DNA of 64,000 nucleotides, taken from assembly GCA_001606155.1 (NCBI GenBank), contig LODT01000047.1, positions 124,001-188,000 of the forward strand, in the 5' to 3' direction. The stretch comes from Tieghemostelium lacteum (taxonomy: Eukaryota > Evosea > Eumycetozoa > Dictyosteliales > Raperosteliaceae). Under the pieces are notes generated by a model that saw only the letters and a list, made by a program, of their open reading frames with translations, had not been told where the DNA came from and did not search any database. Shown in pieces: positions 2,481-11,139 of the stretch; within the stretch, counting starts at the first letter, position 1, and every line of letters starts with the position of its first letter. Both the position numbers and the translations under genes were made by a program.

Positions 2481-2628
2481 TTATACCTTTTAGTCATTCT
2501 AAAGTTGTGTTATCTGAAATGGTAAAATATATATAAATTTCAAATATTAAATATTTAATGATTTTTATAAATCTGGCTTTCAAATTAAACGAAAAGAGAT
2601 TTTTTTTTTGAATTTTATTTTAAATGTG

Positions 2629-4335
2629 ATGAAGATTGTAACTTTACTTGTATTTTATTTATCTATTCAACAGGTTTTATCAATTGATCATCCTAATAAT
2701 GTTTTTGGTTTAAATGCACCAATGTTTAGCGATATGAACCGTCAGTGGGGAATGATAACATTTGGCAAATTACCAACAGAGACTTTTACTTTGGGTGATA
2801 GTTGTACAATTAAACGTGAACCTAAAAACCCAACAAGTGGTAAAGAATCATTTGGATTCACTCATATGGTTGGTTTTGTAGATGACAATACATGCTATGC
2901 AGATGATAATCTATTTGATGGATTATTTGATCCTTGGAAAATATTTGTACGACCTGCTCCGATACCTATACCATTGTCAAAAGCTACATCACAACCTAAA
3001 GAACCTGTAAAATCTAAATCACCAACACCTGTAGAAGCTGCTCCATCAGCCCCTCTATTTAGAAGAGCAACTCCATCCTATATAAACGCTGAAACTTTAT
3101 CACTAGTTGATAGTTATATACTTTCACAAATTGATAGTGAACTTCCATCTCCCAACAACCGTGGTAAAAGAAGTGGAGGTCCATTAGATGAAGAGCTACC
3201 TCCAGCTAAATCCACCAAATCTAGAGACACCATTTTTGGAAAAGAATTGAAATTTTCAGTTCAATCCTATTATGGACATAAACAAGTTTATGCGAGAACA
3301 TTATATTTACATTCTGAAATTCAGCTAATTAATGCCATTGCACATTCAGATGGTGGTATTGCAAAACTTACAGATGTTTACCAACCATTGTATCTCTTTT
3401 CCTACCATTTCCCATGTTTTTATTGTACAGATACACTCACTCATTTGAATAGAGATATGAATTCATATATCTACTATACCTATCAGTGGGATAAAGATTA
3501 TGTACATTGGCAAAACCAAGAGAAATTCTTTAGAAAGAATTGGATAATGGTACCTACTCCACCTGACCCTATTCTCGCTGATAAAGATTACAAAGATCCA
3601 TTAATTCCTCATTTTGATACCAAAAGAACCAAATTTGGACATTATCCAATCTCTTTTAGCGACAATCTAAAAGACTTTCTATGCCACGAGGAGAGAGGGT
3701 TTTTGAAAAGAGATGGTTTTGTAAACTGTAATTATAATGTTGATTACTTTTTATCAAAAATAATACCAGTTGTAATGAGTAAGGCTATTGACGAAAGAAA
3801 ATTAATGGATAATCATTATGAATGGGATGTATATATGGAAAAAACTCTAAAAATTGACAAATACACTCGAACAATTATTAGAAGTGCTCTTGCTTATGTA
3901 CAACTAATGAATTGGTAATGTATATTATATTGTTACTTTTTTAATTTAAAATTTTTTACTAATATGATGGTGTTAATATATAGTGCAAGAGCAAAAACAC
4001 AACCACCACCAAAAGAACCTGAACAGGTTGATTATAAGATTTATCACTTAACAGCAACACCACTTGAATATTTACCACCAAACCACTACCAAGCACCACC
4101 ACAATGTCAACAAGGATACACTGGTAGTTTTTGTGAAAAACTTGCCGGTATAGATATTAATGTGCAACTAGATTATAAATTCCAATTCCAACAACCCTCT
4201 TGGAATAAGCATTGCCTAAAATCTAAATTTCCAGGAAATGAACATCTGAAACATCAGAGAGATTATTTTAAGACTTTAAGTGATCACCACAAAGGTCTAT
4301 TTGTAGATGATGAATCTTCTTCTGCTCCAAAATAA
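2629..4335 (+). CDS. Secreted protein with deaminase-like zinc motif (2 exons)
   Basis: Exons 2629-3914 and 3984-4335; the 69-bp GT-AG intron 3915-3983 joins two frames exactly and gives 545 residues. The ATG at 2629 opens a clear signal peptide (MKIVTLLVFYLSIQQVLS), so the protein is probably secreted or lysosomal. Zinc ligands of the cytidine-deaminase fold are visible: H228-S-E230 inside YLHSEIQLI, and P262-C-F-Y-C266 after the strand YLFSYHF. This is the HxE...PCxxC pattern of nucleotide and nucleic-acid deaminases. Before the domain lie a proline/serine-rich stretch and a dibasic RGKR site near residue 180 that resembles a proprotein cleavage site. Exon 2 adds a cysteine-poor tail with a half EGF-like motif, CQQGYTGSFCE. 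Fold and secretion are read from sequence; enzymatic activity and substrate are not known. It could also be a structural relative without activity. Confidence 0.72.
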
Positions 4336-4384
4336 AATTATCTAACTTGATAATTTTAATTGAATTCTATCATACTACTTCGGT

Positions 4385-4601: not shown

Positions 4602-6302
4602 ATGTCATCAATTACATCAAAAGTTATATTTGTAGAGATACTTAATAGGTATCTATCAGTATTTAACAATAAGAATCAAAGATATACACCTAGTTTACTA
4701 TTTAGTTTATTGGAAAAAATGTCATTGGTATCAAAAGATTTTAATAGGATGATATCATCATTGAGATACCCTCTCATGGAGATAACAAGCAGAAAAGAAT
4801 ACTTTTTACTGAAAAGGATGTTTGACCATTTTAAAGGATTGTCATTTGACAATTTTGATGGATTCAATCTGTCAATGATTGACTATGAATTGGATTATCA
4901 ACAGTTGGAATCTATGGGTTTAGATAGAATTCATGGTCTGATTGATAAAAGTAGGTCACCAAACCTTTTGAGATATATCAATAGACTGTCAACACAGAAA
5001 CCTAGTGTAATGGAGGGTCTTAATAAGAGTCTAAAGACACTTACCTTGTATTATCCAACCCCTCCAGTACCTAGTGAAGCTATGAAAGCACTAACTCATA
5101 TTACATCAGTTCCAGAACTGAATATTCACTCTTCCACTGCATTTGCAGTGAAAAGTCAACAAATTTTTATTACACCTTCTTCAGTAACTGTACTTACCAT
5201 CACAAGGTTTTGGTTAGATGAAATTTGTCTAATGTCTATCTTTACCTTAAAATCATTACAATCATTATCAATATTATATTGTCAAGTAGATGAACTATCA
5301 CAACTAACAATGGCTGAATTGGCAACTAACACCACTTTAAAAAAACTTAGAATCAAGTCAAGTAATATTAGTATAAATCAACATCTTCTCATTCCAACAT
5401 TGGCATTCAATCAAACTCTTGAGGTCTTCGATAGTGATCATTCTAATAAATCCAAAAAGATATTATTTTCACATCATCTATTTCAGATTCATAGCAATGA
5501 TACAATTGTCAATAATACTCTAAAGACATTGTATATCACAAATGTAGATGTATATAATAGATTTACATTAAAATCTAATATTAGAAAACTCTATGTAATG
5601 AAAAATGACTTGAAACCAGTTATGAAATATCATTTTGGTCAATTGACTAAACTAAAGATTGAACCTGAAGATTCACCTTCCATTTCATTCATTAATGATA
5701 TCATTGTGATATTAACAACTACATCTACCTTAGTATCATTCTCATTGAGTTATTTCAATGATCTTATAAGTGTACTTAACAAAACCATCAGACCTAAAGT
5801 TGATGAATTTCAAAAGATCTTCCAAGCACTCAAAGAAAATAGAAGTCTTAGACATTTATATCTATTACACATTACTGTTGGATACCATGATCTTTTGGAT
5901 TTTATAGGATACTCCCATCCAACCATTCAAACATTTGAGTTTGTCAATGGTAGATTTGAAGATCACTACATACCATTAGATTCATTGGCAAATAAAATCA
6001 ACAGAAATCAGAATCTAGTAGCTCTGTCACTGGAGGGTTTAAAAGTACCTTCAATGAATGCACAATTCCAAGATGTTCTTTCTAGATTCATGGCCAATAT
6101 CATTGGTAACTGTAGTAATAATCTAAAACATCTCAATCTAAATGGTCTGATATCACATGAAAATCAAATACCAATTTTTAAACAAGCCATTAGAAATAAT
6201 CAAAATAATTTACTGTCACTTACACTTGACAAATCCATTCATTCTTACCTTATTGAATATTTAAATTCTAAAAATATTAAAACAATCTATACACCCAAAT
6301 AA
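4602..6302 (+). CDS. F-box-like/leucine-rich dictyostelid protein
   Basis: A single-exon protein of 566 residues. The first ~60 residues contain an F-box-like helix pair ending in SLVSKDFNRMISSLRYPLM, the usual start of these amoebal proteins. The rest is a run of irregular leucine-rich repeats (LKSLQSLSIL, LKKLRIKS, LRHLYLLHI, LVALSLEGLKV, LKHLNLNGLI, LLSLTLDKSI). F-box/LRR proteins usually recruit substrates to SCF ubiquitin ligases, but the F-box here is divergent, so this role is an inference. The upstream region contains two bZIP-type heptamers. It is a homologue in style, not a close copy, of the proteins ending at 841 and starting at 11139 and 56686. Confidence 0.75.
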   Translation: MSSITSKVIFVEILNRYLSVFNNKNQRYTPSLLFSLLEKMSLVSKDFNRMISSLRYPLMEITSRKEYFLLKRMFDHFKGLSFDNFDGFNLSMIDYELDYQQLESMGLDRIHGLIDKSRSPNLLRYINRLSTQKPSVMEGLNKSLKTLTLYYPTPPVPSEAMKALTHITSVPELNIHSSTAFAVKSQQIFITPSSVTVLTITRFWLDEICLMSIFTLKSLQSLSILYCQVDELSQLTMAELATNTTLKKLRIKSSNISINQHLLIPTLAFNQTLEVFDSDHSNKSKKILFSHHLFQIHSNDTIVNNTLKTLYITNVDVYNRFTLKSNIRKLYVMKNDLKPVMKYHFGQLTKLKIEPEDSPSISFINDIIVILTTTSTLVSFSLSYFNDLISVLNKTIRPKVDEFQKIFQALKENRSLRHLYLLHITVGYHDLLDFIGYSHPTIQTFEFVNGRFEDHYIPLDSLANKINRNQNLVALSLEGLKVPSMNAQFQDVLSRFMANIIGNCSNNLKHLNLNGLISHENQIPIFKQAIRNNQNNLLSLTLDKSIHSYLIEYLNSKNIKTIYTPK

Positions 6303-9678: not shown

Positions 9679-11139
9679 TCATCTATGAAATGTAATTTTA
9701 ATATTATCATTGGTGGTTTTGATTAATTTTGGCTTAATGTTATAACATCGTCTTAAAAGAATAATTTCTTTTAGTCTTTGGTTATTGTCAAGTATATCGT
9801 TTAGATGTTTAGCACGTAAATAGTCCATAACAAGACCTAATGTTTTGATAGATGGACTGAGATTATTAATTAATACTTTAAAATCATGAATAAAACCTTT
9901 TGGAGGTTTTTTATTACATCTACCCCAACAACTGTTATCGTTATTACAAATTGATAAATTGGTGAGTGTTTTGTGATTCATCAGTAAATGTTGGCATTTA
10001 TCCCAAAGATCTTGAGAGAACTCTTCATTTGGTTTAATATACCCATCATCATAATAGAATGGACAAAATAGTGAATCAAATGTACCATCTAATTCTTCAT
10101 CCTCGTCTAATTCATCATAGTATTTTTCTGAGAATCTTCTGTATTCTATTCTCTCTAAATCAATATTTTCATTAGGATCTTCTTCAACTTCATCTTCAAT
10201 ATCAAAGTGGTGACTATTAGCATATGAATCATAACTCTTGTAGAATGAATAAATTTGGTGAAATTGTAAATCTACATGAAGAGTATGAATATTTGGTGAT
10301 TGAAGTAATCTGTAGAATGTAAATAATGATATTGGTGTATCAATAATTTTTACAGATTCATATCGTGAATTGTGTTTAGATATACTATGACACATTGTAA
10401 AATGAGGGTATTCTGATGCAGTGTGCGAGGCAGGCTGTAGAACCAAATCAATAGGATCCAATATGATTACAGCATTTCTAAAATCAGAAAAATCAATATG
10501 ATCTCCCAAATCAGTTTCAATTCGCATATCAAATTCAAGTACCAGAGATTTAGTTTCAAAGTTTTTATGTAACATTTCATTGTTATTTTGAACGTTCCAA
10601 AAAGCCTTTTCTTCGCAGCCAGTCGTAATATCAAAATGATATTGAACATTGGGAATTTGAATTTGGTTGAGTAAATTCAATGAATCCCATCGAATACATG
10701 AATTATCTTCGTATCCATCAAAGACTACTAATATACATTCAATTGATAGGATATTGCCTTTATCTTTGTATTCTGAAATTGCATCAACAAATGATTTAAT
10801 GTTTACAAGTTCAAATTTCAAGTGTTTAACATTTTCAAAATTGGAGTAAAATCTAAATCTGTTGTTACTATTGATTAGATTGAATTCACATGGGTTATGT
10901 GACTGTGCAAATTTAGATTTTTCCATATCAACAATCATTGTACAAGCCACCTGTTTTTTCAAAATTTCAAACCATTCCCAACAAACCAATGAATATTTCA
11001 TTGCCCATTTGACAATTGGAAGATGTGACTTTGAAGAATCAATTAAACCCAATTCTTTTGATAATATCATTAATATAGATTTCTCTAAAAATAATGATAA
11101 CTTTACAATCCTAGTCTCTTCTTTAACTTCGTTGTCCAT
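9679..11139 (-). CDS. F-box/leucine-rich dictyostelid protein with acidic insert
   Basis: A 486-residue single-exon protein. The N-terminus has a divergent F-box-like helical part (SILMILSKELGL...MKYSLVCWEWFEILKKQ). Leucine-rich segments follow (VKHLKFELVNI, IHTLHVDLQFH, LTNLSICNND, IKTLGLVMDYL, LKEIILLRRC). A very acidic insert lies around residues 295-345 (EDEVEEDPNE, DELDEDEEL). A role as a substrate adaptor is inferred from the fold only. Its ATG at 11139 lies just 29 bp from the target-site repeat of the piggyBac insertion, so the transposon sits directly in its promoter. Confidence 0.72.
   Translation of the reverse strand: MDNEVKEETRIVKLSLFLEKSILMILSKELGLIDSSKSHLPIVKWAMKYSLVCWEWFEILKKQVACTMIVDMEKSKFAQSHNPCEFNLINSNNRFRFYSNFENVKHLKFELVNIKSFVDAISEYKDKGNILSIECILVVFDGYEDNSCIRWDSLNLLNQIQIPNVQYHFDITTGCEEKAFWNVQNNNEMLHKNFETKSLVLEFDMRIETDLGDHIDFSDFRNAVIILDPIDLVLQPASHTASEYPHFTMCHSISKHNSRYESVKIIDTPISLFTFYRLLQSPNIHTLHVDLQFHQIYSFYKSYDSYANSHHFDIEDEVEEDPNENIDLERIEYRRFSEKYYDELDEDEELDGTFDSLFCPFYYDDGYIKPNEEFSQDLWDKCQHLLMNHKTLTNLSICNNDNSCWGRCNKKPPKGFIHDFKVLINNLSPSIKTLGLVMDYLRAKHLNDILDNNQRLKEIILLRRCYNIKPKLIKTTNDNIKITFHR

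Follow-up and report, generated by a model that had tools for sequence, protein, structure and literature searches.

A probable secreted AID/APOBEC-like deaminase of the DAAD family in the social amoeba Tieghemostelium lacteum

The window analysed here, a stretch of 64,000 nucleotides from the Tieghemostelium lacteum genome (23.3 Mb, AT-rich), carries near its start a two-exon gene on the plus strand (exons 2629–3914 and 3984–4335, the stop codon ending at 4335) that encodes a protein of 545 amino acids and is referred to below as the DAAD gene. The open frame at 2629–3918 spans 429 amino acids, and both this frame and the downstream exon lie where a preliminary description of the locus had put them. 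The genome holds five copies of this architecture with open frames: the window gene, one copy on contig C37 and three on contig C40. The features of the window gene are as follows, with conservation given across these five copies.

2629..2682, plus strand: predicted signal peptide, residues 1–18, a hydrophobic N-terminus following MK
2629..3914, plus strand: exon 1 of the DAAD gene, residues 1–428 and two bases of a split Cys codon, from the open reading frame
2704..2964, plus strand: N-terminal conserved domain, residues 26–112, inside PF18752, with two Cys kept in 5/5 copies
2965..3228, plus strand: low-complexity linker of Pro, Ser and charged residues, residues 113–200, from the alignment
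3160..3171, plus strand: RGKR, residues 178–181, not conserved
3229..3720, plus strand: deaminase domain, residues 201–364, from PF18752
3310..3426, plus strand: zinc/catalytic signature H228-x-E230 ... P262-C263-x-x-C266, from the motif positions
3915..3983, plus strand: GT-AG intron of 69 bases, at the corresponding place in 5/5 copies
3984..4335, plus strand: exon 2, the C-terminal tail and stop codon, from the spliced reading
4105..4134, plus strand: half-EGF motif C-QQ-GY-T-G-SF-C, in 5/5 copies

A further stretch of protein separates the end of the deaminase domain (residue 364) from the intron. Elsewhere in the window, an uninterrupted frame at 911–2014 on the minus strand encodes a Sulphur-transport family protein (PF04143, E 1.4e-53), and three long frames (59–841 and 4602–6302 on the plus strand, 9679–11139 on the minus strand) gave no Pfam match at E ≤ 0.01 and by eye resemble leucine-rich amoebal proteins.

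The intron removed between the two exons reads GTAATGTA...ATATAG. Comparison among the five genomic copies supports it, as a GT-AG intron of 67–75 bases stands at the corresponding site in every one, in agreement with the earlier proposal that a half-EGF motif is reached after splicing out 3915–3983. In all five, the junction forms the sequence M-N-C-A-R, whose conserved Cys is made by splicing. The tandem copies on C40 offer an alternative GT three bases downstream that also keeps the frame open and lengthens the product by one residue; the donor was picked there to agree with the other two copies. When the exon 2 protein was searched against the genome, five places were found with E < 0.01, each adjoining one of the five DAAD genes, and the motif C-x2-[GK]-Y-x-G-x-F-C is present in all of them. 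A full EGF domain, in which six Cys follow the EGF order, was not found in the tail, which shows only C-x2-GY-x-G-x2-C, and the EGF_STAB1-2 profile reaches E 0.059 on the window protein, below its cut-off.

Residues 26–364 match the Pfam family DAAD ("Dictyosteliid AID/APOBEC-like Deaminase", PF18752) with E 5.9e-105 and 351.7 bits, against a curated cut-off of 25 bits, and the match covers positions 1–291 of the 291-position profile. Five further copies also exceed the cut-off on scanning, and membership of the window gene in the DAAD family is as good as certain. The preliminary description had read the protein as a secreted deaminase-type enzyme, which this match bears out, and had been unable to place it in a named family, whereas Pfam already names one. 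The match stops at residue 364, so the Pfam model leaves uncovered the final 181 residues, among them the EGF-like tail. The next families listed for the window protein, XOO_2897-deam and OTT_1508_deam, have E-values of 0.16–0.17 and fall below cut-off.

The placement of the gene within the AID/APOBEC group derives from Pfam's name for DAAD, because the other profiles of this group remain below threshold and appear in two of the six scanned copies. In those two copies, NAD1, APOBEC2, SNAD4 and APOBEC_N were matched with E 0.0014–0.039, all below the Pfam cut-offs (SNAD4 scores 14.4 and 17.4 bits against a cut-off of 27), and neither SNAD nor other AID/APOBEC profiles exceed their cut-offs in any scanned copy. 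Among the Pfam matches listed at E ≤ 10 for the window gene there is none to NAD1, APOBEC2, SNAD4 or APOBEC_N, nor to any SNAD profile. Of 14 control genomes, eight gave matches below cut-off to SNAD4 and one to APOBEC_N, while a search of the whole T. lacteum genome with SNAD4 and APOBEC_N gave no match; part of the signal is therefore superfamily-wide. DAAD itself was found in none of the 14 control genomes. Relatives were also sought in other organisms with tblastn, and no stretch encoded one among 22 pattern-matched bacterial and archaeal contig stretches or among 2 and 29 pattern-matched stretches of viral contigs, scans that rely on short peptide patterns and that distant relatives may escape. 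Sequence searches of the PDB gave no credible match (best E 0.22, and 1.1 in a second search), and a structure predicted from the single sequence of residues 200–429 of the window protein has a pLDDT of 36, a value too low to be meaningful. The product of the gene is probably a secreted protein of social amoebae related to the APOBEC enzymes, which act against viruses, and to AID, which diversifies antibodies.

The zinc signature of the window protein is complete and reads H228-S-E230 and P262-C263-F-Y-C266, with H228, E230, C263 and C266 at the numbering proposed earlier. Within the window, H-x-E...P-C-x(2-4)-C is confined to the frame of the DAAD gene, one of 59 that run from stop to stop over 100 amino acids or more. 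A protein search of the genome with exon 1 gave five places and a DAAD family search gave ten rows, which together with the follow-up searches resolve into the following loci beyond the window gene.

C37:199872-201134, reverse strand: nearest copy (L014), 82% identical to the window gene and about 71 kb away
C40:731031-736419: tandem trio, three DAAD copies 38–39% identical to the window gene
C24: divergent copy (two rows of the family search), with P-C-x3-C, a different exon structure and no tail motif seen
C31:1473044 onward (match C31:1473518; L024:1027-3053): second divergent DAAD-like relative, multi-exon, below the Pfam threshold
C40:730327 (L015:2328-2528), minus strand: DAAD remnant directly behind the trio, with two stops in the matched stretch
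C11:826234-826491: DAAD fragment found with the C24 query, 51% identical over 92 residues, with three stops for which introns are a possible cause
C19: one row of the family search, E 0.15

Besides C24, the locus on C31 appears to be a divergent relative. In this gene, exon 1 has a hydrophobic N-terminus and the motif H-S-E...P-C-K-D-C with a spacing of 43 residues, exon 2 matches DAAD at E 0.0026 and 18.1 bits, below cut-off, and the last exon contains C-N-H-G-Y-C-G-L-F-C, which by eye resembles the tail motif. Two results speak against this reading: as a genome query, C31 exon 1 matched only itself, and the last exon was not recovered by the genome search with window exon 2. Seven non-fragment copies remain once the remnant on C40, the fragment on C11 and the C19 match are set aside, namely the five of the same architecture together with C24 and C31. 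H-x-E and P-C-x(2,3)-C are present in all seven, one having three residues between the Cys, and the distance from the H to the last C is 39 residues in six of the seven and 43 in the seventh. The preliminary description had named homologues lacking these residues as grounds for abandoning the deaminase reading; in this genome every non-fragment copy keeps them.

The same seven copies bear on where the protein acts. The signal peptide suggested earlier holds up, in that hydropathy and inspection by eye, the heuristic used here in place of a trained predictor, find a hydrophobic N-terminus in the window protein and in 7/7 non-fragment copies (the seventh judged by eye). Beyond residue 40, the window protein has no 19-residue stretch with a mean hydropathy above 0.83. 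Across the five same-architecture copies, eight Cys columns are kept: two zinc ligands, two in the N-terminal domain and four in the tail, and the six that are not ligands suit the disulfides of a secreted protein. On these grounds it is very likely that the product enters the secretory pathway. The proposal that it is processed at the dibasic RGKR before the deaminase domain fared less well, because the nearest copy has RGKS at this site and the trio has K-K-R-[GV]-[HR]; conserved furin-like processing at RGKR was accordingly rejected.

Classical AID/APOBEC enzymes are intracellular (PMC11004436, in the part available), and the DAAD proteins could follow them if the hydrophobic N-terminus were unused for secretion, or if a fraction of the protein escaped, with action inside the cell against, for example, retroelements or viruses. 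The linker of the trio contains basic clusters (KKRGR...KKPK) that would then serve as a nuclear signal. The clusters of the window gene differ in form from these, however, and the hydrophobic N-termini of all seven copies and the six conserved non-ligand Cys of the five both argue against an intracellular site, which we consider unlikely.

A second alternative concerns the substrate. The zinc motif is common to mononucleotide deaminases, and a secreted enzyme of this kind might act on free nucleosides, nucleotides or small modified bases, in the salvage of food nucleic acid or in making ammonia, instead of editing polynucleotides. Dictyostelium is reported to have a secreted adenosine deaminase that produces ammonia (PMC12711200, in the part available). 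Two DAAD copies weakly touch PF00383 (E 0.29 and E 0.037), but the profile that matches strongly is DAAD, the Pfam listing of the window gene lacks PF00383, and none of the 13 places in the genome that match PF00383 at E ≤ 0.001 is a DAAD. Despite the two weak matches, the profiles thus make an ordinary cytidine deaminase unlikely. Nor would a housekeeping enzyme be expected to evolve with a dN/dS near 1, as recent DAAD copies do (below), and action on free nucleosides is in our view improbable.

The genome also encodes a second family of secreted deaminases, of six proteins (223–255 amino acids, four in tandem; L029 at C31:311500-318500, L030 and L031). All six have hydrophobic N-termini, H-G-E and C-P-M-C, and all are among the PF00383 places; the one scanned also matches MafB19-deam. 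At L003:991-1980, on the minus strand (around C30:1078464-1078742), a MafB19-like deaminase is joined to a carbohydrate-binding domain, CBM49 (E 4.9e-16), behind an N-terminus that is hydrophobic by eye, giving a deaminase with a sugar-binding anchor. Aligned with hhalign, DAAD and the MafB19-like family superpose H/E on H/E and C/C on C/C, but the probability of the alignment is 1.1%.

The window gene and its nearest copy arose by a recent duplication that extends little past the gene, as their DNA matches in a single block (window 2597–4375, 86.7%). Recent copies change quickly at the protein level. NG86 dN/dS is 1.16 for the window gene and its nearest copy and 1.18, 1.12 and 1.31 for the pairs of the trio; the bootstrap intervals of all four pairs span 1. 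The six older pairs (window gene or nearest copy against the trio) have values of 0.47–0.50. Neutral simulation under five settings gave mean NG86 dN/dS values of 0.80–1.02 with upper 97.5% limits of 1.11–1.29, so the observed 1.12–1.31 lie at or slightly above neutral. A codon model of the trio prefers a dN/dS near 1 and strongly rejects 0.2 (log-likelihood -3630.34 free, -3630.64 at 1 and -3715.6 at 0.2), and the excess over 1 is not significant; positive selection over the whole protein is not established by this comparison. The five copies taken together favour values below 1, and 1 itself is rejected (-6147.5 free against -6159.6 at 1). The translated alignments of the four recent pairs contain 10, 11, 12 and 8 gaps, which are whole codons by construction, and no frame is lost. 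The introns of the recent pairs differ by 2–4 bases.

Change is unevenly distributed along the protein. Between the window gene and its nearest copy, identity is highest in region 201–330 (90%) and lowest in exon 2 (69%), and the linker is the least identical part of exon 1 in this pair and in two of the three trio pairs. In the trio, exon 2 gives NG86 values of 1.87–2.35, and a codon model of the tail has its optimum between 2 and 3 (-723.79 free, -726.27 at 1, nominal p about 0.03), an excess that is only suggestive because five regions, the tail among them, were examined in addition to the whole. The N-terminal region of the trio prefers about 0.5 (-695.55 free, -697.07 at 1). In this genome's secreted MafB19-like family, dN/dS is 0.07–0.26 in 15/15 pairs, though at a higher dS (0.24–1.04), which means that the contrast with the DAAD pairs is not age-matched. 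Constraint that relaxed once the genes had duplicated is enough to account for the rate, since the excess is not significant and the five-copy data reject 1 downward. Either an arms race or relaxed constraint could underlie the fast change of recent copies.

A binding protein, too, might well carry an EGF-like tail and change fast, and no DAAD activity is reported among the literature matches listed. The DAAD proteins might on this account be zinc-stabilised recognition or adhesion proteins with little or no catalysis. A bare zinc site would need no Glu, however, and the would-be catalytic Glu is kept in 7/7 copies, including the divergent ones on C24 and C31, despite the quick change of much of the protein. 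We regard this alternative as quite improbable, and it is likely that the DAAD protein is an active zinc deaminase.

Taken together, the best explanation, to which we give a probability of about 0.62, is a zinc cytosine deaminase, secreted or phagosomal, whose substrate would be single-stranded nucleic acid and whose role would lie in defence or competition. The signal peptide would direct the protein into the secretory pathway, which would leave the phagosome or the extracellular space as its site of action. In AID/APOBEC enzymes and cytidine deaminases, it is established that a zinc is held by H, C and C and that a Glu shuttles the proton; by analogy, H228, C263 and C266 would hold one zinc here and E230 would be the proton shuttle. 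The predicted reaction is the conversion of cytosine to uracil in single-stranded DNA or RNA, a polynucleotide substrate being reasonably probable. For a role in defence or competition the odds are about even. Our guess at the target is the nucleic acid of ingested or competing microbes, or of viruses taken up with food, and the cysteine-containing tail may, again as a guess, steer or stabilise the enzyme. A bolder version casts the DAADs as weapons that social amoebae secrete to mutate their targets, rewriting cytosines in nucleic acid that belongs to rival cells or to microbes they have swallowed; the EGF-like tail would then evolve quickly because it meets the target. We hold this version to be speculative and rather unlikely; if true, it would mean that a microbe uses AID/APOBEC chemistry extracellularly, unlike its best-known, intracellular use in vertebrates. 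Social amoebae allow gene removal, so the purpose of an extracellular editing-type deaminase can be asked directly.

Compared with known systems, the window gene adds a new member to a family that already has a name. It resembles DAAD (PF18752) over the whole profile, N-terminal domain included, differing by the last 181 residues and the EGF-like tail beyond the model. The literature matches listed include no paper on DAAD function, nor any mention of the splice-made Cys, the EGF-like tail outside Pfam or the fast change. Krishnan et al. in 2018, cited below for the SNAD clades, reportedly named the DAAD family too. The MafB19-like deaminases (PF00383/PF14437) of the same genome share with DAAD a hydrophobic N-terminus, a zinc deaminase motif and tandem copies; they differ in belonging to another family, with H-G-E and C-P-M-C, and in being conserved (dN/dS 0.07–0.26). 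AID/APOBEC enzymes, together with the sea-urchin AIDL proteins (PF08210), share HxE-PCxxC with DAAD, and AIDL members were shown in bacterial assays to deaminate cytosine in ssDNA (PMC5956068, in the part available). The differences are that the words 'signal peptide' and 'secreted' occur nowhere in the text of PMC5956068 and that the amoebal match to PF08210 is sub-threshold. A parallel in layout is provided by the SNADs, whose clades PMC11004436 credits to Krishnan et al. 2018: these are likewise encoded by many genes and combine a signal peptide, called in the amoeba by hydropathy and by eye, with an AID/APOBEC-like zinc motif. They are described there from animals, however, 'dictyostel' is absent from the text of PMC11004436, and SNAD4 reaches two amoebal copies below cut-off. 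The available parts of the two SNAD papers describe the biochemical activity of SNADs as unknown (PMC11004436) and say that their biological functions 'remain unknown' (PMC13402138). The figure 2 legend of PMC11004436, a fish SNAD paper available in part, states that, among AID/APOBEC-like enzymes, SNADs alone have a predicted secretion sequence, a statement that a secreted amoebal AID/APOBEC-like protein, as predicted here, would contradict.
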